Of a DNA stretch of 43,145 bases, positions 21,000-43,145 are shown piece by piece (positions within the stretch are counted from its first letter, which is position 1; the number at the start of each line of letters is the position of its first letter). The notes under the pieces were generated by a model. It saw nothing but the letters and a program-made list of their open reading frames with translations, was not told the origin of the DNA and searched no databases. The DNA lies in contig VXPE01000089.1 in assembly GCA_009839745.1 (NCBI GenBank), positions 1-43,145 on the forward strand, given 5' to 3'. Made by a program: the position numbers and the translations under genes. This DNA is from Candidatus Poribacteria bacterium. GTDB lineage: Bacteria > Poribacteria > WGA-4E > WGA-3G.

Positions 21000-21324
21000 C
21001 GGTTAGTACTGACATTTCTCCCTTGACGGATTCGGTCCACTGTTCGCTTTAAACTTGGAGAGGCAGAAGCGGCGCGTTCCAAATCCCAATGGTCTCGGAC
21101 AAACTGAATCAACCGAGGGTTATATTCATTTCCTGTTTTTGCGGTTTTATCGTTTCGTGCTGGCACAAGTGCCTCTCTCAATCTTGTATTTCTGCTCCTT
21201 CGGGCAAGTGATACAAGGAACTCCTTGGGAGAACCGATCTCGTCGGTGTTTCGTGGAATACGATTAACGGGTATGGCTAGAAATTCTGCAACAGAACGAC
21301 AAGAATTACATTGTTTAATCCCAT
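20996..21324 (-). pseudogene. Frameshifted, shortened partner gene of the AAA ATPase remnant
   Basis: An ATG at 21324 overlaps the ATPase stop and opens as MGLNNVILVV, but this frame stops at 21277. The neighbouring frame then reads on without interruption to 20996 with conserved-looking content: SVAEFLAIPVNRIPRNTDEI, SPKEFLVSLARRSRNTRLRE, YNPRLIQFVRDHWDLERAAS and SPSLKRTVDRIRQ. I recall similar text from the C-terminal half of proteins encoded directly after AAA ATPases (DUF4276-like), but cannot verify it. Such partners are usually around 200 residues, so the gene appears frameshifted and internally deleted. Confidence 0.5.
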
Positions 21325-22167
21325 TTTAATAGACTCAGCTGTGCAGCATGTTCAGGACCAGTTTTTGAAAGCACAGCCTCACCGACCGTAAGACCTGCTT
21401 CAAGTAACCTTCGGACGGGCTTAATATCCCACGCTGGTATGACCGTTGTATTCGTTTCTGTGGGTGCTAGCATTAAAACTTCCGTGCCATCAATTCCCTG
21501 CTCTGTGAGAAGTGCATCACTATGGGTGCTAACAAAGACTTGCCGTCGTCTGCTTCTTTGCATCCGAGAAATCAAGGGCGCAAGTTGCGACACAATTCCG
21601 AGGTTCAATGAAAGTTCCGGTTCCTCCAATAAGAGAACCGAGTCACTTTCAAGGAGTGACCATAGAAGTCCAAGCAACCGGAGTGTCCCATCGGAAAATT
21701 GATCTTCTCGTTGCCAAACTCCTTGCGCACGCCAGTGGGAATAGAGCGCCCGCAAATGTGGATGTCCTGTGATTTCGTCGCGGCAAAACTCCAATTGTTT
21801 AAACTGTGGCACAGCGATCTGGAGTGCTGATTCAATTTTTTTCAACCGAGAACGCCGCGTTCTTTCCGTAACACTGGCGACTCGTTCGAGAAATCCCTGT
21901 CCAAAGGGATCTTCTTCAACAATTCTACCCTGAATTGAAGCCGCAAAGCGAAGCAGCTGCGGAACTAAATGGAGGTAGGTAACATTTCCGAGGAACTGTG
22001 CAATCTCTCGGAATTTCGCATTCATATTGACCTGCTCCAGAAAGGTCTGGGTAAGACGATCCTGATCCACTTCATCATCTTTATCCGGTCTTTGTAGAAG
22101 TAATTCACTCTCTTTCCATACTTGTTCATTCAATTTTTTGCAATAAGTCGATTGATAATCATAACAG
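21315..22167 (-). pseudogene. 5'-truncated AAA (ABC-like) ATPase
   Basis: The readable part (272 residues from TTG 22133) contains the end of an ABC-type AAA protein: signature-like FSDGTLRLLGLLWSLLESD, Walker B VLLLEEPELSLN, and H-loop QVFVSTHSDALLTEQG. The N-terminal third with Walker A, essential for ATP binding, is missing. The frame stays open upstream to the edge of an inverted-repeat element at 22168 (reading YDYQSTYCKKLNEQ), and no Walker A is found beyond it. The gene was therefore probably cut by the element or a deletion. It pairs with the decayed partner gene overlapping its stop. Confidence 0.65.
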
Positions 22168-29596: not shown

Positions 29597-29722
29597 AGCG
29601 TAATATTGCTAAACCTTTTTGTTAACGAAGCGTCACAATTGCTAATACCGTTATAGCAAGCTGCAGCGTGCGTTTTTTATGCCGCATTGCTGCCTACAAC
29701 GCTGAAAAGGGAGAGAATACCA

Positions 29723-32700
29723 GTGAAGACTGCTAACAATACGATTCCACTAACGGGAGCCTTGTTGGTATGTTTCTGTCTCGCCGTATTAGGACTTCCG
29801 ACTGCCTCTGCGGAACACCACGAAACGCCACAAACCCCCCTTAATTACAATCTCGACATCCGCCCGATCCTTTCGGATAATTGCTATGCTTGCCATGGAC
29901 CAGACGCGAAGAGTCGGCAAGCCAACCTACGGATTGATACGAAAGCCGGGGCGTTCTCTGAACCGAGCGGATATCCGGTCATCGTTCCCGGTAAACCCGA
30001 AGAGAGTGAACTCCACATTCGCGTCACCTCCAACGATGACAATTACCGCATGCCGCCTGCGGGTTTCAACAAGACACTGACACCGGAACAAATTGAAGCG
30101 ATTACACAGTGGATCCAAGAAGGTGCGAAATGGGAAGAGCACTGGGCATTCACGACACCCGTCCGTCCAACGCCACCTGCTGTCAAGGACGGCACCTGGG
30201 TCCGAAATCCCATTGATGCGTTCATACTCTCACGCCTTGAAAAAGAAGGTTTACACCCCGCAAACGAAGCCGATAAGCGGACGCTCATCCGACGCCTAAG
30301 CCTTGATCTCACTGGCTTACCCCCGACGCGTGAGGAAATTCACCAATTTCTCGCAGACGATTCACCCGAGGCTTACGAAAAAGTGATTGATGCCTTCATG
30401 GCAAAGCCGGAATACGGTGAACATTTCGGACGCTTCTGGTTAGATGTCGCACGTTACGGCGACACACACGGACTCCATTTAGATAACTACCGTGAAATGT
30501 GGCCCTATCGCGACTGGGTCATCGAGGCATTCAATCAAAATATGCCTTTTGACCAGTTCACGATCGAACAATTAGCCGGGGATCTCTTGCCGGAACCGAC
30601 GCTTGACCAAAAGATCGCCACGGGTTTTAATCGATGCCATGTCACGACCAGTGAAGGTGGCTCGATCGATGAGGAATATTATGTCCAATACGCGATTGAC
30701 AGAGCAGACACCACCTCAACCGTCTGGATGGGACTAACTGTTGGATGCGCCCAGTGTCACGATCATAAATACGATCCGATCACGCAGAAGGAATTCTATC
30801 AACTCTACGCCTATTTCAACAATATTACCGAAAAGGCGATGGACGGCAACCGTAAGGACTCTCCCCCTGTTGTGAAGTTGCCGACGCCAGAGCAGGAAGC
30901 CGAACTCGCCGCGTTTGACGAACAGATCGCCGAACTGGATACGCAGACGAAAGCACCTATCCCTGAAATAGATGCCACGCAAATCGCTTGGGAAAACAGG
31001 ATACCCCGCTGGACAACACTGAAACCGAACTCGCTTTACTCAAAAGGTGACGCGACCCTTGAAGTTTTAGAGGATAATTCTATCTTAGCCAGTGGCACCA
31101 ATCCTGAACAGGAAATCTACGAGATTATTGCGGAACTGCCACCCGGTAAATGGAGTGCCGTTCGTTTAGAAGGTCTCACACACGAATCCCTGCCGGAAAA
31201 TGGGTTCGGTAGAAGTAGTAACGGCAATGTTATTTTGACGGATTTCGCGCTCTTCATCGCGCCCTCCGTAGCGGATAGCGAGGCACCCGCTGAACCGGAA
31301 AGCACGGATACCGAGGTTAATGCTGAAACGCAAGCAGAGACCGGAAGCACCGTCGAGACTGAAGCACAAGCAGAAAATACGCCTACCCTCGAAACCGATG
31401 CCGAAGATCAAACAAACAGCGAATCCACAGATGAAGCATGGGCAGAAGTAGAAAATGAGACTGAAAGCGTCGATACCGATGCCCCGTGGACGCGTATTCA
31501 AGTCGTGCATGCATGGGCAGACCACGAGCAAGCACTCGGAGAAAACAATCTCGAGGGTGTCGTTGCAAATGCGATTGACGAGAAACCGGAAACGGGATGG
31601 GCACTCGACAGAAAGAGTGAAAATCGGCAAGCCATCTTCCTTGTCGCCGCCCCCTTTGGAATGGAAGGTGGCAGATTGAAAATTCGTCTCAAACACGAAT
31701 ATGATTTGCGACAGAAGCAACTCGGACGCTTCCGCCTCGCGCTTACAGATGTCACAACGATCTATCCCATCGGCTCCAAAATCACTTTGGACGACTGGCA
31801 CGCCGCGGGTCCGTTCACTGCTGGACACGGCAACCTCGCTTTTTATAAGGCATACGAACCTGAAACGAAAGAGGTCAACACAGGCGATACCTATGAGGTA
31901 GATGGAAAAACCATCAAATGGGAGAAGCACGCGCATTGGGTTGACGAACAGGTGCATAACGACATCGTTGGTGAAAACAGTGCCACCTATCTCTTCCGAA
32001 ACATCGTCTCTGTTACACAACAGAAAGCACTACTCTATATTGGGAGCAACGATGCCCTGAAGGTTTGGATGAACGGTCAGGAACTCCTCGCCAAAAACGT
32101 TCAACGGGATGCCGCTGCCGACCAAGAGCAGATACAGGTCACTCTCAAGCCCGGTAACAATAAGCTGCTCCTGAAAGTCGTCAATTACTCGGGTCCCTCC
32201 GGTTTCTACTTCCGTATGGAAAGCGAACCCCCGATGGTGCCAGCAGATATTGTCGATATCGCGGGAATATCTCGCGGTGAACGTGAAACCGCACAGATGG
32301 AACAGATTCGAGATTACTACCGGCAGAACATTACGCCAGATAAGACAATCAATGAAAATACCAAGCGCGCCTTCGGGGAACTGAAAACGCTTTTTGCGGA
32401 TCTATCGGAGGTCCAAGGGAAACGGGACACCCTCGATGCTTCGGTTACGACGACGCTCGTCATGCAAGAGCGAGAGGAACCGAGAGGGGCATACGTCTTA
32501 GCACGCGGTGAATACCAGCACCGAGAGGAACAGGTATATCCGCAAACGCCAGCAGTGCTACCAGCCATGCCTGAAGACACAGCACCGAACCGCTTCGGCT
32601 TTGCGAATTGGTTGCTTTCACCCGAGCATCCCCTGACTGCCCGTGTCACGATCAACCGTTTCTGGCAAAACGTCTTTGGGATGGGGATTGTGGAAACATC

Positions 32701-33541
32701 AGAAGATTTCGGGACACAAGGGAAACCGCCGGTGCACCCGGAACTTCTCGACTGGCTCGCGACGGAATTCATCGCCTCTGGGTGGGATGTGCAAGGTATG
32801 CTCAAATTGATGCTCACTTCGGCAACATACCGGCAGAGCGCACAGGTCACGCCCGAAAAATTGGAACGCGATGCAGATAACCTCCTCCTCTCTCGGAGTC
32901 CGAGGTATCGACTCGATGCCGAAATCGTGCGAGATAACGCTCTTGCCCTCAGCGGCTTGCTGTATCCTAAAATTGGCGGTCCGAGTGTAAAACCCCCGCA
33001 ACCCGATGGACTCTGGAAAGCCGTCGGGTTTACCGGATCCAACACGGACACATTTGTTCAAGATACCGGGGCTGATAAGGTATACCGCAGGAGCCTCTAC
33101 ACGTTCTGGAAACGGACGGCACCCCCGCCACAGATGAACATTCTCGACGCGCCTTCACGTGAAGCTTGCACAATCCGCCGTGAACGGACCAACACACCGA
33201 TGCAGGCGTTAATGCTGATGAACGATCCGCAATTCTTTGAAGCGGCGCGTGCGTTCGCAGAGCGCACTATCAAGGAGGGCGGCGAAACACCCGAAGCACG
33301 TATCGCCTATATCTTTGAGATGGCAACGGCTCGCCTGCCGAAACCGAAGGAGGAGGCACTGCTTTTGAAGACGTTCCAAGCCCACTATGCGGAGTTGGAA
33401 ACGGACCCAGAAGCAGCCAAAGAACTCATTGCTGTCGGTGAGTCGCCACCCGATGAAACCTTAGATGCAGTCGAAGTCGCTGCATGGACAATGATTGCAA
33501 ACCTGATTCTCAACCTGGACGAAGTCCTGAATAAAGGGTAG
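29723..33541 (+). CDS. Planctomycete-type cytochrome c, DUF1549/DUF1553 protein
   Basis: 1272-residue exported protein. Signal peptide [20 protein letters not shown]; PSCyt1 domain with haem motif CYACH (54-58) and MPPAGF; DUF1549 with [37 protein letters not shown] and a second C-x-x-C-H (CAQCH, 342-346); a middle region with a very acidic low-complexity stretch (about 518-590) and a beta-rich module (WHAAGPF..., [11 protein letters not shown]) resembling PA14-like sugar-binding folds; then DUF1553 with [20 protein letters not shown] and [18 protein letters not shown]. The function of these proteins is not established. GTG 29723 has AGGGAG nine nt upstream. The DUF1501 gene follows by 20 bp, as in many genomes. 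Confidence 0.92.
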   Translation: [1272 protein letters not shown]

Positions 33542-33561: not shown

Positions 33562-35040
33562 ATGGACCCGGTTAAAGAATATTTGAAACTTGAAACACGC
33601 CGTCAATTCTTCGGTAAATGTGCGTCAGGTCTCGGTGGTGCGGCACTCGCTACGTTGCTACCGAATGCGATTGCCAACGCGCTTGAGAGCCAGGCGACAC
33701 CGAGATTTGGCGGTTTACCAGAGTTACCACACTTTGCGCCGAAAGCCAAACGTGCCATTTACCTATTCATGTCCGGGGCACCCTCCCAACTGGACCTCTA
33801 CGACTATAAACCGAATATGGGGAAATGGTTCGATACGGATCTCCCAGAATCCGTCCGGATGGGTCAACGCCTCACAACGATGACCTCAGGACAGGATAAA
33901 TTCCCGATCGCACCCTCTATATTTGAATTCAAGAAGTATGACAACGGGGGTGACGGTGTATGGCTTAGCGAACTGCTACCGCACACGGGAGCGGTGGCGA
34001 AAGACCTTGCGATTATCAAGACGGTTCATACCGAGGCGATTAACCACGATCCGGCTATCACCTTCTTCTGTACCGGTGATGAAAGTCCGGGTAAACCGAG
34101 TCTTGGGGCATGGTTGAGTTACGGGCTTGGGAGTGAAAACGAAAATTTGCCCGCGTTTATCGTAATGAACGCCACATGGAGCGGTCCGAAGGGCGCACAA
34201 GCACTTTATAATCGACTGTGGGGATCCGGGTTCCTCCCGTCGGAACACCAAGGCGTACTCCTACGGAGTCAAGGTGATCCTGTCCTCTTCCTCTCGAATC
34301 CGGAAGGTGTCAATGAAAAGACGAGAAAACAGATGTTAGATACCCTCGTTGAACTCAACAAGGAACTCTATGAGGAAGTGGGTGATCCCGAAACGCATGC
34401 CCGTATCTCACAATACGAAATGGCATTTCGGATGCAGACGAGTGTCCCTGAACTTACGGATTTGTCCCAGGAACCCGAGCACGTCTTAGAACTGTATGGA
34501 CCTGAGGTCAAAACCCCCGGGACATTTGCCAACTGCTGTATCCTTGCACGTCGGATGATGGAACGCGATGTCCGTCTTGCGCAAGTCTTCCACCGGGGTT
34601 GGGATCAACACGGGGAGCTGCCCAAAAACATCCGCAACCAAGCCCGCGATATCGATCAGCCCTCGGCTGGACTTATCACAGACTTAAAACAGCGTGGAAT
34701 GCTTGATGAAACCTTAGTCGTCTGGGGTGGCGAATTTGGACGAACTGTCTACTGTCAAGGCACGCTTACGCCGGATAACTACGGACGCGACCACCACCCG
34801 AAATGCTTCACGCGCTGGATGGCTGGCGGCGGTATCAAAGGCGGTGTCGTCCACGGCGAAACCGATGACTTCAGTTACAATATCGTCAAAGATCCTGTCC
34901 ACGTTCGCGATATAAATGCGACGATCCTCCATCAACTCGGTATCGACCACGAGCGGTTAACCTTCAAGTTCCAAGGGCTTGACCATCGATTAACGGGCGT
35001 TGAGGAGAGAGCGCGGCTCGTCCGTGAGATTTTAGCATAA
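33562..35040 (+). CDS. DUF1501 protein with Tat signal
   Basis: 492-residue protein of the DUF1501 family (sulfatase/alkaline phosphatase-like superfamily). The N-terminus has a twin-arginine signal, [20 protein letters not shown]. Then the family motifs [82 protein letters not shown] and [17 protein letters not shown], containing the conserved Asp and His residues expected to bind metal. The start has AAGGAG seven nt upstream. Always paired in this type of genome with a DUF1549/DUF1553 protein; the joint role is unknown, possibly extracytoplasmic polysaccharide or sulfated-polymer breakdown. Confidence 0.92.
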
Positions 35041-35041
35041 A

Positions 35042-35221
35042 GGGTTGGACTTCGCACAAGGACGTTTTTCCGAAAGGGCTGTTTTTAATCATTCAAAATT
35101 CCTCGGAAAAATAGATTTCACTTCCGCAAGGTTCGCTATCTCGGCTTCGTATCAGGATGTCCGTTATACGACAAACACAATATGGCAATGGCTTAAGAAT
35201 AAACTCGCCAGTCGAAGTTAA
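35042..35221 (+). pseudogene. Pentapeptide-repeat gene fragment
   Basis: An open frame without a proper start, directly after the DUF1501 stop, encodes about 59 residues: GLDFAQGRFSERAVFNHSKF then LGKIDFTSARFAISASYQDV then RYTTNTIWQWLKNKLASRS. The phenylalanines are spaced like pentapeptide repeats. The later part aligns without gaps to FTAAQFVSVAAFGDVKYTPD TFF in the channel protein at 36915. It is therefore a truncated relative of that gene, lying on the other side of the ATPase gene. A TTG at 35045 could start a short real protein, but no ribosome binding site supports it. Confidence 0.6.
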
Positions 35222-35347
35222 GAATGTCGTAGGTAGTGAGGATGCGTCCATACAAACCGTATCTGACCTTTCAAGATGGCGAGCGTTATCAAATCGCCAT
35301 TGATGCAATCCGAACAAGCAACATCCTATTCCTTCCTTGGAGGCTTC
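35222..35347 (+). other. Spacer before the ATPase, small unrecognised frame
   Basis: Contains ATG 35249 opening MRPYKPYLTFQDGERYQIAI and running into the ATPase gene in another frame for about 55 codons. I do not recognise it; it may be the head of a lost gene. No clear promoter is visible for the ATPase gene. Confidence 0.3.
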
Positions 35348-36856
35348 ATGCCCAAACTATTTGTCAAAAATTTCATAAATATCCGCGAAGCAGAAATCGA
35401 TATGGATAAAACCTTGGTGGTTTTCATCGGTGAAACCGCCAGCGGGAAAAGCGTCCTCGCGAAACTGATCTATCTTTTCCAAGAGTTAATCGGCGACTTT
35501 CGCCAACACATCAGACACATTAATGCCTACCCTCCAGAACATTTGAAAACGCCAGGACAAGAATTGGCGACGGTCTTTCGCACACAAATCGCTCGTAAAT
35601 TCCGTGAGTTTTTTGGTGATGCCAAAGGGTTCGCAAAACTAAATAGTCATCAGCAAGAGATTGGAACGGAAGAGAAGAAGGGTGAAAAAGAGGAGACCCA
35701 TCCCTCCGTCCCTCCACCCCGCGAGCCAAATGTCGATAGCGACTTTGAAATCGTTTATCACTATACAGCTGAAAGTGCCATCAGACTGACGCTAACCGAT
35801 GAGAAATCGCTCCATATTGAATTACCCACCGTTATGGACGAAGTTGAAGACCTGTGTTACAACCTATTGGAGAAACTGAAAAGCATTGACCTAAAACAAT
35901 CCGACAGCACTGAAACGGCGTCTGACGCTCCTAAAGAAACAGATGCGTCTTCAGAAAGTGACGCTCAACTCAATAAGAACGCCGATCAATTCCATTACAT
36001 TTTGAATATGGCGATCGGAATGAGCAAGATCACGGAGAAATTAGCCGGTAAACATCGTGACGGTCTCTTCATTCCGGCAGATAGAAATATCGCTGCCAAC
36101 TACCCAGATGCCCTTAAAAGAATCTTCTATGGTGGCATAAAAAGCGACCTCAATACGCGCGCCGCAACCCGTTCACGTGCCAATCTCCATCTTATCGCAC
36201 GCTTCTTGGAAAAAAATGAAGAATTCCTCGATATCTTCAGCACACAGAACTTCCGGAGCCTTTTTGACGAAAGGATCGAGGAAGAATCGAGAGATGTCGA
36301 TAAACCGATGATGGAATTCCTGCTCAAGAAAATTTCCTTTATCTTAAACGGTGAATACGAAACGACAGACAAAATTTCTCAATCCCGTCTTTTTTTTCAC
36401 CCAGCGGGTGAGAGCACAACATTCTTAGAAAACGCCTCGACAGGGCATCAAAATCTCATTCGGATCCTACAAGATGCCTTCATGAGTATGCTTTACAATG
36501 AAATGATTTTCCGCGTGATTGAAGAACCCGAAGCGCATCTCCATCCAACAACCCAGAAACACCTCATGCATATCATCGCCCTGATGCGAAATTACATTGA
36601 CAGCCAAATCGTTATGACAACCCACAGTCCATATCTTTTGGCGGTGCTTAAAAACCTCCTAACCGCCGGGCGACGGTCAAAGAAAAATCCAGAGGCTGCT
36701 GCTGCAATGGAGGCGCGTGTTCCAAAACTATGTTGGTTAATGCCTGAAGATGTGGAGGTTTATCATCTTAAAGACGGGAGAAGCCATTCTATTGTCCAAT
36801 CGAAAAAGAAGTCGATTCTCAAAAATCCACTTGCCGATCTCCTTTCAGATTTTTAA
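35348..36856 (+). CDS. AAA ATPase of ABC/SMC-like type, possible defence ATPase
   Basis: 502-residue ATPase with N-terminal MPKLFVKNFINIREAEIDMD, Walker A GETASGKS (28-35), a long insertion with an acidic/Ser-rich low-complexity part (about 186-207), STGHQNLIRIL (signature-like), Walker B FRVIEEPEAHLHP (about 386-398), and H-loop VMTTHSPYLLAVL. It resembles AAA_15/AAA_21 ATPases found in OLD-, Gabija- and retron-type defence modules, but has no TOPRIM nuclease domain. I choose ATG 35348 with GGAGG four nt upstream; the frame upstream to 35276 lacks homology-like text. The pentapeptide channel gene follows 58 bp later on the same strand, suggesting a functional pair. Confidence 0.85.
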   Translation: MPKLFVKNFINIREAEIDMDKTLVVFIGETASGKSVLAKLIYLFQELIGDFRQHIRHINAYPPEHLKTPGQELATVFRTQIARKFREFFGDAKGFAKLNSHQQEIGTEEKKGEKEETHPSVPPPREPNVDSDFEIVYHYTAESAIRLTLTDEKSLHIELPTVMDEVEDLCYNLLEKLKSIDLKQSDSTETASDAPKETDASSESDAQLNKNADQFHYILNMAIGMSKITEKLAGKHRDGLFIPADRNIAANYPDALKRIFYGGIKSDLNTRAATRSRANLHLIARFLEKNEEFLDIFSTQNFRSLFDERIEEESRDVDKPMMEFLLKKISFILNGEYETTDKISQSRLFFHPAGESTTFLENASTGHQNLIRILQDAFMSMLYNEMIFRVIEEPEAHLHPTTQKHLMHIIALMRNYIDSQIVMTTHSPYLLAVLKNLLTAGRRSKKNPEAAAAMEARVPKLCWLMPEDVEVYHLKDGRSHSIVQSKKKSILKNPLADLLSDF

Positions 36857-36914
36857 CACAACCTACACCGTCTACTGTATTATATAAAATAAATATCAAG
36901 GTAAAAATAGACAG

Positions 36915-38072
36915 ATGTACGAGAAGCACGGAGAAACAATCAAAGCACAGACCTTCCTTGACGCCTTGCAAAGCGATGCCGTATCCGTTACCTTGACGAA
37001 TTGCACGATCGAAGGGGTTGTTGACCTCTTTTCTATCGAATTGGAACGGGACGCGAATGACCGGATACTCCTCAATAAGAGACTCTCCTGCATCGGGTGT
37101 ACGTTTAAAAACATCGTCAACTTTCGGACAGTCGTTTTCCACCAAGAGGTGGACTTTCGGCGCACGCTTTTTGAGTCGGATCTTGATTTCGATGAAGCGA
37201 TTTTACACGGTCCCTGCGCATTCCGTGAAGCAATCTTCCAACGGCGTGCCGATTTCCACAGCGCAATCTTCCACAAGAGTGCCAGTTTTTGGCGGGCGCG
37301 ATTTTATAACGCCGCTGATTTCCACAGGGTTCAATTCCGTGAAAACGCGGTTTTCCATGAGACGAACTTCCTCACTGAAGTCAATTTTCGTAGCGTGCTG
37401 TTCCAAGGCATCCTCGACTGCACAGGAACATGGTTCCCTGAAACGACAACATTCAGCAACGCCACATTTTTCGGGACTGCCCACTTCACCGCCGCACAGT
37501 TTGTCTCCGTCGCTGCCTTTGGCGACGTTAAATATACCCCAGACACTTTTTTCCACGCTGTGAAAGCCAAACTTGGCAGAAAACAGCACCGTCCGACCGA
37601 ATTCTATTTAGATAGCCGATACATCGACGAGGTCGCGAACCCTTTTTTTCAAAGGTACGTCGCCGACCGGCAGTTCATACGTGCGTTCAATCAGGCAAAT
37701 CCGATATTGGCAAAGTTATGGCGATGGAGTTCCGACTACGGTCGGAGCTTGGTCCTCTGGGCGTTCTGGTCTCTCTTTTTTGCGTTTCTGTTTGCGCTTG
37801 CGTATATGCCGCTCCCGACGTGGATGCCACCTTGGCTGCAAGACTGGACCCCTCGCTTCCATCAATCGACAGGTGCTTATAGTGGTGAGCCGTTAACCTT
37901 CTGGAACTGTTTCTATTTCAGCATTGTTACCTTCACGACGCTCGGTTTCGGGGATATCGTTGCGGATAACGCCGCTGCGCGTTTGCTCGTTACACTGGAA
38001 GTCATTTTCGGGTATTTGATGTTGGGCGGATTAATCAGCATCTTCTCAAACAAATTGGCGAGTCGGAGTTAA
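36915..38072 (+). CDS. Pentapeptide-repeat protein fused to a two-helix K+ channel
   Basis: 385 residues. Residues about 60-215 form pentapeptide repeats with Phe every five residues (AFREAIFQRRADFHSAIF, ASFWRARFYNAADFHRVQF), predicted to fold as a right-handed beta helix. The C-terminus is a two-transmembrane ion channel: TM1 about 278-298, pore helix 329-340, selectivity filter TTLGFGD (341-347, compare TVGYGD), TM2 about 354-377. The soluble part should be cytoplasmic and may gate the channel. The ATG has AAGG 13 nt upstream (AAGGTAAAAATAGACAG). It follows the AAA ATPase by 58 bp and precedes the matrixin/TPR gene by 23 bp. Confidence 0.88.
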   Translation: MYEKHGETIKAQTFLDALQSDAVSVTLTNCTIEGVVDLFSIELERDANDRILLNKRLSCIGCTFKNIVNFRTVVFHQEVDFRRTLFESDLDFDEAILHGPCAFREAIFQRRADFHSAIFHKSASFWRARFYNAADFHRVQFRENAVFHETNFLTEVNFRSVLFQGILDCTGTWFPETTTFSNATFFGTAHFTAAQFVSVAAFGDVKYTPDTFFHAVKAKLGRKQHRPTEFYLDSRYIDEVANPFFQRYVADRQFIRAFNQANPILAKLWRWSSDYGRSLVLWAFWSLFFAFLFALAYMPLPTWMPPWLQDWTPRFHQSTGAYSGEPLTFWNCFYFSIVTFTTLGFGDIVADNAAARLLVTLEVIFGYLMLGGLISIFSNKLASRS

Positions 38073-38095: not shown

Positions 38096-40522
38096 ATGCA
38101 AACCAGAATTTTACAGACATTCTTCGTTATTACCTTCATAGTATCTGCTTTCACAACACATACAACAGCACATGTAGCACCACAATCGGGAAACGCGGAC
38201 TATGCGGACTATTTTGACTATATCACGCTTTTCTCGCAGGGACGCATCACCCGTTTTACAGAGATGCCGATCCGGGTGTATATCTCCCCTGTCCTTAGAG
38301 AGAGTCCATACCTCCCTGAAATCCGATATGCGATGGAAACTTGGCACACCGCCAGCGAGGGTGCTATCCGCTTCGAAGAAACTGAGACACCGCAGAACGC
38401 AGATATCCGCGTCAGCTGGGGATATACCGGTCTCCTCGCCGATTTCCAAGATACCCGACTCGGCAGTGCAGAACTCACACGCCTCAAAGATAGCGTCCAA
38501 ATCGGCACCTTTTCTAATGGATTAGAGGTGGGTTCTATCACTACGGTTGAAGACCGAGAAACCGAGACACCACAGGAGATCAGTTTTACAGTAGAGGTTA
38601 TCCTCATGTTAGAGGGTTACGGAACTGTCGGGGAATTGTCGCAGGAAGAGATGCGCACGGTATGCGTTCACGAATTCGGGCACGCAATCGGCTTGTGGGG
38701 ACACAGTCCGCATCCGGGAGACATCTGTTATCCGACAGCGACCGCACAACTGCCGAGTGCGCGCGATATAGCCACGCTGCGTAAGCTCTATAATACCCCG
38801 CTTAATATGTCACAACACGATGTCGCTATCAAGGTACTGAAAACTGAGATTGAACAGAAACCCTACGCAGACCCTCAAACGCAGCTGCGGACACGCTATC
38901 TGCTCGGAGCCGTCTACTTCGACAAAGGCGATATACCCGCTGCTATCGCGACCTTCCAAACCTGTAGCGCGTTAAATCCGAAGTTTCAACCCGCACTAGA
39001 AAAACTCATTCACATCTACCACGAAACAGGGAAAACCGATCAAGCAATAGCACTTGTTGAGGAACGGATCGCGGGGAAACCCTCGGCGGCAGATTACAAT
39101 ACGCTCGGCATCTTCTACTACGACAAAAAGGACGTTGAAAAGGCGGTCCACGCCTTTGAAAAGGCACTGCACATCGCCCCGTATCACAAAGCCGCGCGGC
39201 GAAACCTGCATCAACTCCTCCGAGCCAAAGGCTTCAAAGCATTGGCATCAAAAGACTTTGAGACCGCTACCACCGCCTTTGAAAGGGTGTTACAGATGGA
39301 GCCCCTCGACGCCCCTACCTATCAACTCATGGGAAACGGATACGCGCAAGCCGGACACTTTGAGAAGGCTATCGACTACTATCAAAAAGCGATCGACCTG
39401 AATCCCGTGGATGCACTGACACAGCAAAATTTCGCACACTGCTATAACAATTACGGTGTATCGCTACGAAACCGTGGAGAATGGGACGCGGCAATTGAGG
39501 CGTATCGCAACGCTCTACGGTTGATGCCGACGCTCCAAATTGCTCGAACGAACCTGAGCGACGCATTTACCCGAAAGGCGAAGGCACATAGTGAAGCAGG
39601 CGAATTAGATGCAGCCGTGGCGGTGTATCTCGAATTGCAGAAACTCCATCCGAACGACATGCATATTCGGAATTTGCTTGGGGAGTTATATCTCAAAAAA
39701 GGCGACTACGCCGATGCGTTATCGGTATTTCAGCACGTTTATAACATCAATCCAAACGCCGATCACGCCCTACATAACCTCATTGCAGCGTCCCATCACT
39801 ATGCACGAAGCCTCAGCGATATGGAAGACTACGGAACAGCGATTCAACTGCTTGAAAAGGCACTTCAACTCTCACCGACCGATCTGAATTTACGGTTGAG
39901 CCTGGCGAACGCCTATCAAGGTGCTGAGAACTACGAGCGTGCTGCTACGGAAATATCGCGCGTTTTGGCACAGGAACCCGGGAATCCACAGGCAAAAGAG
40001 GAGCAGATTAACCTGAAAATCCGACGGGGCAACGCCCTCATGCGGCAACGACAATACACCGACGCACTCGCTGAATTTGAGGCGATCCCTGAGTCTGCGC
40101 GCGACACCGAGATTTATAACACCATCGGCTATCTCTATCTCGTGGAAGGCGAACATGCGAAAGCGTTCGTTGGCTTTGAAACTGTTCTGCGGAAAGATCC
40201 GATTAACATGCCTGCCTTCAGGAATCTATTGTCATTAGAATCCCAGTTAATCCGCAAACGTGGCACTAAAACGAGAGAGGCTACCCTCGTCAAGGTCCGA
40301 TGTCTGCTTGCCATCGCCTTGATGCATCGAAAGCAATCGACTGCAGCGGTCGAAAAATATCAATTTGCGCTGAATGCTGCGAAAAAATCTGGCACATCTG
40401 AAGATATAGATTCACACCTTATTGAAACCGGTAGACATCTCGCCAAGTGGTTCCAGCAACACGGGGATGCTGAAAACCGAGAGATGATTCTCGATTGGGT
40501 TGAAGAACACAGGGGTAATTGA
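38096..40522 (+). CDS. Exported matrixin-like metalloprotease with TPR repeats
   Basis: 808 residues. Signal peptide (LQTFFVITFIVSAFTTHTTA), a metzincin-like domain (about 55-235) with the zinc site VCVHEFGHAIGLWGHSPHPG, then about 12 TPR-type repeats to residue 750, for example YNTLGIFYYDKKDVEKAVHA and LMGNGYAQAGHFEKAIDYYQ. The spacing between the zinc histidines is one residue longer than HExxHxxGxxH (HEFGHAIGLWGH), as in some bacterial matrixins, and the Met-turn position reads DICYP instead of DIMYP. The start has AAAGG six nt upstream. Co-directional with the channel gene (23 bp), though a functional link is unproven. Confidence 0.85.
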   Translation: MQTRILQTFFVITFIVSAFTTHTTAHVAPQSGNADYADYFDYITLFSQGRITRFTEMPIRVYISPVLRESPYLPEIRYAMETWHTASEGAIRFEETETPQNADIRVSWGYTGLLADFQDTRLGSAELTRLKDSVQIGTFSNGLEVGSITTVEDRETETPQEISFTVEVILMLEGYGTVGELSQEEMRTVCVHEFGHAIGLWGHSPHPGDICYPTATAQLPSARDIATLRKLYNTPLNMSQHDVAIKVLKTEIEQKPYADPQTQLRTRYLLGAVYFDKGDIPAAIATFQTCSALNPKFQPALEKLIHIYHETGKTDQAIALVEERIAGKPSAADYNTLGIFYYDKKDVEKAVHAFEKALHIAPYHKAARRNLHQLLRAKGFKALASKDFETATTAFERVLQMEPLDAPTYQLMGNGYAQAGHFEKAIDYYQKAIDLNPVDALTQQNFAHCYNNYGVSLRNRGEWDAAIEAYRNALRLMPTLQIARTNLSDAFTRKAKAHSEAGELDAAVAVYLELQKLHPNDMHIRNLLGELYLKKGDYADALSVFQHVYNINPNADHALHNLIAASHHYARSLSDMEDYGTAIQLLEKALQLSPTDLNLRLSLANAYQGAENYERAATEISRVLAQEPGNPQAKEEQINLKIRRGNALMRQRQYTDALAEFEAIPESARDTEIYNTIGYLYLVEGEHAKAFVGFETVLRKDPINMPAFRNLLSLESQLIRKRGTKTREATLVKVRCLLAIALMHRKQSTAAVEKYQFALNAAKKSGTSEDIDSHLIETGRHLAKWFQQHGDAENREMILDWVEEHRGN

Positions 40523-41387: not shown

Positions 41388-41417
41388 TTGAAATTGTCCT
41401 TCACATCCGTGTATAAT
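41388..41417 (+). promoter_or_regulatory. Sigma-70 promoter of the restriction-modification gene
   Basis: TTGAAA (41388-41393), 18-bp spacer, TATAAT (41412-41417). Predicted start near 41424, leader about 39 nt. This rules out the TTG at 41388 as a start codon. Confidence 0.7.
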
Positions 41418-41462
41418 TGGACTTATCCTAAGTTCAACCGCCAAAACACACGGAGAAAACTC

Positions 41463-43145
41463 GTGCCGACACTCAACATCAAATCGACACATAAACCCAT
41501 CAGAAACTACTACACCGAACTTGCCGAATACGCGAAAGTCGGCGCAGAACACGAAGGCGCAGTCCGAACCGCATTCCAAAATCTACTCCAACACTACTGC
41601 CGACAAGCAAACCTCATCCTCGTATGTGAAAAGACACGCTACACCCCACAGAAAAGGCGGATCCAGATAGATGGTGAAGTCGTTGATGCGTTTGACTTGC
41701 CACACGGACATTGGGAAGCAAAAGATACACACGATGACCTCCCGACAGAAGCACGGCAGAAGTCGGAGGCAGGCTACCCGTTTAAAAATATGATCGTTCA
41801 GTCACCGACCCGGGCACTCCTCTACCAAAATGGGTATCTCCGACTTGATGTAGACCTCACGGATCCGAGCAACCTTATCAATCTGTTGAACACCTTCTTC
41901 GCGTATCGGGAAGAAAATATCGTTGATTGGTATGCCGCTGTTGAAGAATTCAAAGAAAAGGTTCCGGTGTTAGGGAGCGGTGTCGCAAAGCGTATTGAGA
42001 TCGAAATGCAGGACAATCCCCAGTTCCGACAAGCCTTCCAGAGTTTCCATCAGCAATGCCGAGCATCCATTGATCCGAACCTCACTGAGGCACAAGTTGA
42101 AGAGATGCTCATTCAACATCTCCTCACCGAGCGAATTTTCCGCACCGTCTTCGATAATCCCGATTTTACTAACAGAAACATCATCGCCCAAGAAATTGAG
42201 AAGGTGATCCAGATCCTCACCCTTCGTTCTCCGAGTCGCTCCGAGTTCCTCCGTCCTCTGGATCCGTTCTACGTTGCGATTGAGAAAACCGCTGCTACTA
42301 TCACCGATTTCTCACAGAAACAGGCGTTTCTAAATACCGTCTACGAGCAGTTTTTTCAAGGCTTCTCCGTCGATATTGCCGACACGCACGGTATCGTCTA
42401 CACACCACAGCCGATTGTCGATTTCATGGTGAAAAGCGTTGAGCATGTTCTTATGACCGAATTTGGACGCTCACTGTCGAATATGGGGGTTCACATTATC
42501 GATCCATTTGTTGGCACTGGCAACTTCATCGTCCGACTCATGCAGGAGATCCGGGGGCGGCGATTGCCACAGAAATACCGTGAGGAGCTCCACTGCAATG
42601 AGGTGATGCTGCTCCCTTACTACATCTCCAGTCTGAACATTGAGCACGCCTATTACGAGAAAACCGGGAATTATGAACCTTTTCCACATATCTGCTTCGT
42701 GGATACGTTTGATACGTTCGGTCTGATGGATGCGCCGCACCAAACTGGAGAGTTTACCTATTTCACACCTGAGAATACGCTGCGGGTGGAGGAACAGAAA
42801 GAGGTCCCAATGTTCGTTGTTATCGGAAATCCCCCCTACAATGCCAGACAGACAAACGAGAACGATAACAATAAAAATAAGCCGCATGCAGGCGTTGATG
42901 CCCACGTCCGAGACACGTTTGCTGCAGATTCTAATGCACAGTCGAAAAACAAACTCTATGACCCGTACATTAAGGCATTCCGATGGGCAATGGATAAAAT
43001 TGATGATAAGGGTATTGTGGCATTCGTAACGAAAACGGTTTTATTGATGGACAAATGTTTGACGGTATGCGGCAACATCTCGTAGATGAATTTGATAGGC
43101 TTTATATTCTGGATTTAGGTGGAAACGTCCGTAAGGGACAATCGG
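41463..43145 (+). CDS. Type ISP-like restriction-modification enzyme, N-terminal part, frameshifted, cut by window end
   Basis: Starts at GTG 41463 (GGAG seven nt upstream) with MPTLNIKSTHKPIRNYYTEL. The first 150 residues look like the nuclease-associated part (YTELAEYAKVGAEHEGAVRT, FDLPHGHWEAKDTHDDLPTE with a possible E-x-K). Then the adenine methyltransferase: IDPFVGTGNFIVRLMQEIRG (SAM motif I, about 346) and IGNPPYNARQ (motif IV, about 455-460). These enzymes methylate adenine and cut unmodified foreign DNA, usually with more than 1000 residues. In this sequence the frame shifts in the A run at 43032-43035: reading GGT TTT ATT GAT onward restores GFIDGQMFDGMRQHLVDEFD to the window end. 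Confidence 0.85.

Follow-up and report, generated by a model that had tools for sequence, protein, structure and literature searches.

A probably sensor-gated potassium channel at a chromosomal locus of Candidatus Poribacteria, with an ABC-type ATPase as a variable neighbour

The locus described here is best read as a chromosomal, vertically inherited one that probably encodes a sensor-gated potassium channel, and the adjoining ABC-type ATPase appears to be an old, dispensable neighbour, any tie of which to the channel would amount at most to optional regulation. It lies in the window, the whole stretch of 43,145 nucleotides that was analysed, a contig of a MAG of sponge-associated Candidatus Poribacteria. 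Two of the genes are intact, those for channel A and the ATPase, and a second channel gene, paralogue B, is decayed. The variability of the ATPase among relatives and the decay of the second channel copy here argue for an old inherited membrane locus, not for a demonstrated antiviral system; gating of the channel by the ATPase and an antiviral role are unproven. The features of the locus are:

29687..33541, + strand: PSCyt1/PSCyt2/PSD1 (DUF1549/DUF1553) protein, conserved left flank (Pfam; family-wide neighbour)
33562..35040, + strand: DUF1501 protein, conserved left flank (Pfam, 7.6e-152; family-wide neighbour)
35041..35229, + strand: decayed remnant of channel paralogue B, frame 35045-35221 (DNA identity to an intact relative)
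35348..36856, + strand: AAA_15 ABC/OLD-like ATPase without Toprim, 502 aa (Pfam; alignment with invariant motifs; dN/dS)
35429..35452, + strand: Walker A, GETASGKS, residues 28-35 (ATPase orthologue alignment)
36434..36451, + strand: ABC signature, ASTGHQ, residues 363-368 (same alignment)
36515..36532, + strand: Walker B, VIEEPE, residues 390-395 (same alignment)
36623..36625, + strand: H-loop histidine, H426 (same alignment)
36915..38072, + strand: channel A, predicted pentapeptide beta-helix sensor fused to a two-TM K+-type channel, 385 aa (Pfam; model; K+ channel pore matches)
36915..37529, + strand: pentapeptide right-handed beta-helix, residues 1-205 (model; solved matches)
37749..37805, + strand: TM1, residues 279-297 (model)
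37899..37955, + strand: pore helix and selectivity filter TTLGFGD, filter at 37935-37955 (alignment, pore matches, model)
37971..38066, + strand: TM2, residues 353-384 (model)
38096..40522, + strand: matrixin-like/TPR protein, conserved right flank (Pfam; family-wide neighbour)

Channel A begins 58 bp beyond the ATPase gene and carries Pfam matches to Pentapeptide_3 (4e-19) and Ion_trans_2 (2.9e-11). In its AlphaFold model, a monomer with pLDDT 82 overall and 61-78 in the TM part, the N-terminal half adopts the right-handed quadrilateral beta-helix that A(D/N)LXX-type repeats form in pentapeptide-repeat proteins, matching the solved structures of EfsQnr, QnrB1 and MfpA at Z 15-17. It is followed by linker helices (residues 243-275) and by a predicted two-TM potassium channel layout, in which a pore-region helix (residues 329-342) and the TTLGFGD filter lie between two TM helices. 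For the pore, the sequence matches solved K+ channels (among the matches listed) and the fold matches KirBac, and the filter is invariant across 26 A and B sequences. Sequence and model together support a K+-type channel of predicted selectivity and activity, and they uphold the initial annotation, which had read the gene as pentapeptide repeats fused to a two-helix channel with this filter. A scan for promoters and terminators gave signal at chance level.

Two-TM prokaryotic K+ channels such as KirBac3.1 and the MthK-type pores share the two TM helices, the pore helix and a TTxGFGD-type filter, but carry a C-terminal Kir or RCK domain, whereas channel A carries an N-terminal pentapeptide beta-helix. 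By analogy with this channel family, from which tetramer and topology are taken, we infer a tetramer that would conduct K+, with four subunits making the pore and four pentapeptide beta-helices acting as cytoplasmic sensors. A ligand or partner on the beta-helix would open the pore by displacing the linker helices and TM2; K+ would then flow out and the membrane potential would change. The ligand or input of the beta-helix is a direct, testable question. In one relative (G081, L123 8543-11078), an IS605 OrfB/TnpB (Cas12f-like) gene interrupts channel A after residue 320, with the last 69 residues lying downstream.

Paired A and B paralogues are the original state of the family. Their pores are near-identical and their sensors divergent; the sensors may answer different inputs, and A and B subunits may mix within one tetramer. 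In the window, the start-less frame upstream of the ATPase holds about 52 residues of the pentapeptide region joined to the last codons of a channel gene, and aligns with channel A at 35% identity over residues 167-223 (E 1e-4). An intact paralogue B occupies the same position in G074 (L109 9725-10888, - strand), with 95% DNA identity to the remnant, and in G053, with 91%. Compared with the G074 gene, 614 bp between copies of ATAA and 486 bp between copies of AATAA have been lost from the window: the first of these losses took out the start codon along with most of the beta-helix, and the second the linker together with the entire pore, so that the fragment now runs straight into the NKLASRS end. 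These two deletions at 4-5 bp repeats explain the remnant base by base; in the window lineage they destroyed B and left A, and what remains cannot yield the original protein. The initial annotation was right that a start-less frame aligns with the pentapeptide region of the channel (the alignment is above chance), and its suggestion that a pentapeptide neighbour had been lost is borne out by the intact copies. Its description of the frame as a pentapeptide fragment was correct as to homology and overlooked the channel C-terminal end: since it closes with the last residues of the channel, NKLASRS and the stop, the frame derives from a channel gene by internal deletion and is more than a pentapeptide piece.

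The ATPase lies in an open reading frame at 35276-36856 on the + strand, and its real start is the ATG at 35348, with GGAGG directly upstream, a start common to 14 of 14 aligned orthologues. The protein matches Pfam AAA_15 (2e-23, residues 27-454 of the 526-aa frame). Residues G33, K34, S35, S364, G366, Q368, E392, E393 and H426 are invariant in 15 orthologues, which confirms the intact Walker A, Walker B and H-loop noted from the sequence at the outset. Purifying selection is evident (dN/dS 0.08-0.21), strongest in the core at residues 213-450 (0.07), and the constraint analysis delimits two variable inserts; structure prediction from a 15-sequence alignment reached pLDDT 36. The ATPase superfamily is common among defence systems, and the protein is close in sequence to PtuA/MAD3/OLD-type ATPases. 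In the G029 orthologue (L136 8322-9734), which lies beside channel B, EGPEAYLYP replaces EEPEAHLHP at Walker B, a change that may leave that ATPase catalytically impaired.

To place the locus among its relatives, 60 annotated regions were surveyed. The family gene order runs from PSCyt/DUF1553 through one or two DUF1501 genes, then B, a GFO_IDH_MocA oxidoreductase, the ATPase and A, to matrixin/TPR; B, the oxidoreductase, the ATPase and A are variably present. Of the 59 genomes of this Poribacteria family, 56 have channels and 29 have an ATPase orthologue (27 of these belong to the window's genus, the others are G028 and G029), which leaves 27 channel-bearing genomes without the ATPase. The ATPase adjoins a channel in 28 of its 29 genomes, always on the same strand and with gaps of about 40-205 bp. 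These include G029, whose ATPase is only 49% identical; in G028 it lies 2.3 Mb from the channel, amid unrelated genes. In genus g4 the oxidoreductase is flanked by A and B with no ATPase between them, and in G073 A and B are adjacent. By Pfam, the flanks of the locus are genes other than defence genes. The adjacency count is high, but all the cases are one vertically inherited locus of one family, and because DUF1501 and matrixin/TPR are equally constant neighbours, ATPase-channel adjacency alone weighs little. The locus is a clean case of conserved adjacency due mostly to shared descent, and it counsels care in calling defence systems through guilt by association.

The two genes also part company in their histories. 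For INDEPENDENCE of the ATPase and channel genes, two changes on the channel A tree suffice to account for the presence of the ATPase: one subclade of the window's genus lacks it and so does g4, with G074 as the exception. In this genome the ATPase (95%), DUF1501 (98%) and matrixin/TPR (94%) are all window-like, but channel A belongs to the ATPase-less type: it is 89% identical to the copies of G073 and G068 and 79% to that of the window. In the coordinates of the window, the switch begins near 36.9 kb and ends near 38.0 kb, and it is mosaic in the middle. As it is limited to the channel and both flanking genes are window-like, the channel gene alone was exchanged, and the ATPase has stayed intact after the replacement. 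The replaced copy, L109 6874-8031 (window equivalent about 36900-38000), is a single-gene recombination patch. Median dN/dS of channel A is 0.085 with the ATPase, and 0.071 (g4) and 0.112 (g1 subclade) without it. With both genes constrained, and the channel equally so without the ATPase, these rates indicate that both proteins are functional and that the channel does not need the ATPase.

A rather unlikely alternative is that ATPase and channel are unrelated and stand together only through regional synteny, the ATPase having a role of its own, for example a DNA-related or stress-response one. The equal conservation of DUF1501 and matrixin/TPR, which have no plausible link to the pair, speaks for it, as do the loss of the ATPase from whole clades that kept their channels, the solitary ATPase of G028 and the exchange of the channel allele in G074. 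Against it, ATPase and channel keep their order between g3 and g1, across 49% ATPase identity, while the genes between B and the ATPase vary. An intact ATPase under purifying selection, found beside the channel even in the 49%-identical G029, is compatible with real cooperation. Together with the frequency of its superfamily among defence systems, this counts against the preferred reading of a sensor-gated channel locus in which the ATPase is at most an optional regulator.

The dedicated ATPase-channel defence cassette proposed by the initial annotation, in which the ATPase would sense infection and gate the channel through the beta-helix so that K+ loss halts the infected cell, is unlikely. 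Such a two-gene membrane-effector immune system would fit the tight same-strand pairing, the intact motifs and closeness to PtuA/MAD3/OLD-type ATPases, the weak likeness in fold, over the whole length of the channel, to the defence channel HalA, phage-borne solo relatives of the channel, and a type IIG RM gene and an HEC-01A-like fragment in the same window. These points are outweighed by a single fixed locus of vertical descent with no mobility, by a channel far commoner than the ATPase, equally constrained without it and swapped independently of it in G074, by the lone orthologue of G028, and by flanks other than defence genes. Distant channel relatives likewise lie without an ATPase nearby, and neither protein has close plasmid or phage relatives.

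Membership of known ATPase-based systems was considered separately. PARIS AriA, Septu/retron PtuA and OLD/Gabija GajA share the ABC ATPase core and motifs of the window protein, which differs from them in having no Toprim, no AriB, PtuB or GajB partner found and weak scores against curated models. OLD/Gabija GajA, which requires a C-terminal Toprim nuclease domain, is rejected, as no Toprim match was found. The PADLOC AriA match (6.6e-30) spans the AAA_15 domain only, residues 27-454, and the neighbours are DUF1501, the channel and matrixin/TPR; since the match is so confined and AriB is absent, PARIS membership is rejected. For Septu/retron Ec78, the PtuA model scores 28.8 bits against a cut-off of 500, and no PtuB HNH nuclease or RT lies alongside; this membership is rejected too.

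A further and quite improbable explanation is that the channel itself is HalA-like: a nucleic-acid or nucleotide ligand bound to the beta-helix would keep it closed until an attack set it free, whether or not the ATPase takes part. The first-ranked PDB match of the channel model in Foldseek is HalA with oligodeoxyadenylate, spanning both domains (E 0.023, TM 0.23-0.26), with a VIA Z of 11.9 over 259 residues (model 25-383), and HalA is the sole defence protein with a beta-helix and channel layout in the list of fold matches. HalA, of the Hailong system, is described as an ion channel that poly-dA adducts of HalB block (2026 paper, PMC13275509). However, the E value is above 0.001, the TM scores are low, and many unrelated beta-helices score the same or a higher Z. 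No sequence link to HalA was seen with the window channel or a phage-borne channel (best 60 matches), nor with the linker alone. Hailong also has a HalB nucleotidyltransferase partner, whereas the window channel stands without one at a fixed chromosomal locus; no nucleotidyltransferase Pfam match occurs among the genes flanking it, which speaks against Hailong membership. The fold likeness over the whole length of the model, weak as it is, leaves room for an immune role. It is highly improbable that the channel belongs to a widespread, undescribed HalA-like immune family whose beta-helix is read by interchangeable partners, the Poribacteria partner being the ABC ATPase and the A/B paralogues tuning sensing.

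The combination of a two-TM channel with a pentapeptide beta-helix sensor turns up repeatedly, from Poribacteria to archaeal plasmids and phages, and no functional study of such channels was found in the literature searched. Uncharacterised channels with a beta-helix and two-TM pore, named 'pentapeptide repeat-containing protein', occur in other Poribacteria families (G001, G002, G011 with four copies, and G015), on Acaryochloris (cyanobacterial) and haloarchaeal plasmids, the plasmid copies being tblastn matches only, and on the IMG/VR contigs L151 and L153. Unlike the window locus, they lie in other contexts with no AAA_15 ATPase neighbour; for other phyla this adjacency result rests on a small sample, the wider genome scan covering Poribacteria. 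Copies from the Poribacteria phylum and L151 also share with the window channel an SSxYGRS-type linker and an LGGLISI.ANK.ARR-type ending. In G015 a different contig carries a partial and distant match to the ATPase. The window ATPase has no match on plasmids and no relatives in IMG/VR, and its matches in phages, from two records, are partial and distant; the window channel has no match in phages and only partial pentapeptide matches on two plasmids. The pattern of a mobile or defence-island system is therefore not seen: the locus is fixed in one family, and no copy of the pair was found on plasmids or in phages.

Several further observations concern the surroundings. At 21315-22133 on the - strand of the window lies an HEC-01A-like AAA_21 protein (3e-101) that lacks ~113 residues at the start of the model, the Walker A region among them, and no intact start was found upstream in any frame. 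At 41388-43085 on the + strand lies a Type IIG/ISP restriction-modification frame (9e-128, model positions 6-526 of 1024), which stops 60 bp before the window end; similar genes occur near the locus in several relatives. Among relatives, a block of about 5.6 kb lies between the channel and the matrixin/TPR gene (L092 8672-14258, with equivalents in G079, G075, G080, G064 and G050), containing an unknown protein of ~360 aa, a WD40 protein of ~860 aa and an unknown protein of ~580 aa. Solo pentapeptide two-TM channels without an ATPase lie among phage-like genes at L151 4380-5402 (portal/terminase-like) and L153 3783-5168 (integrase, lysis-like), and may possibly be phage cargo with an exclusion role.
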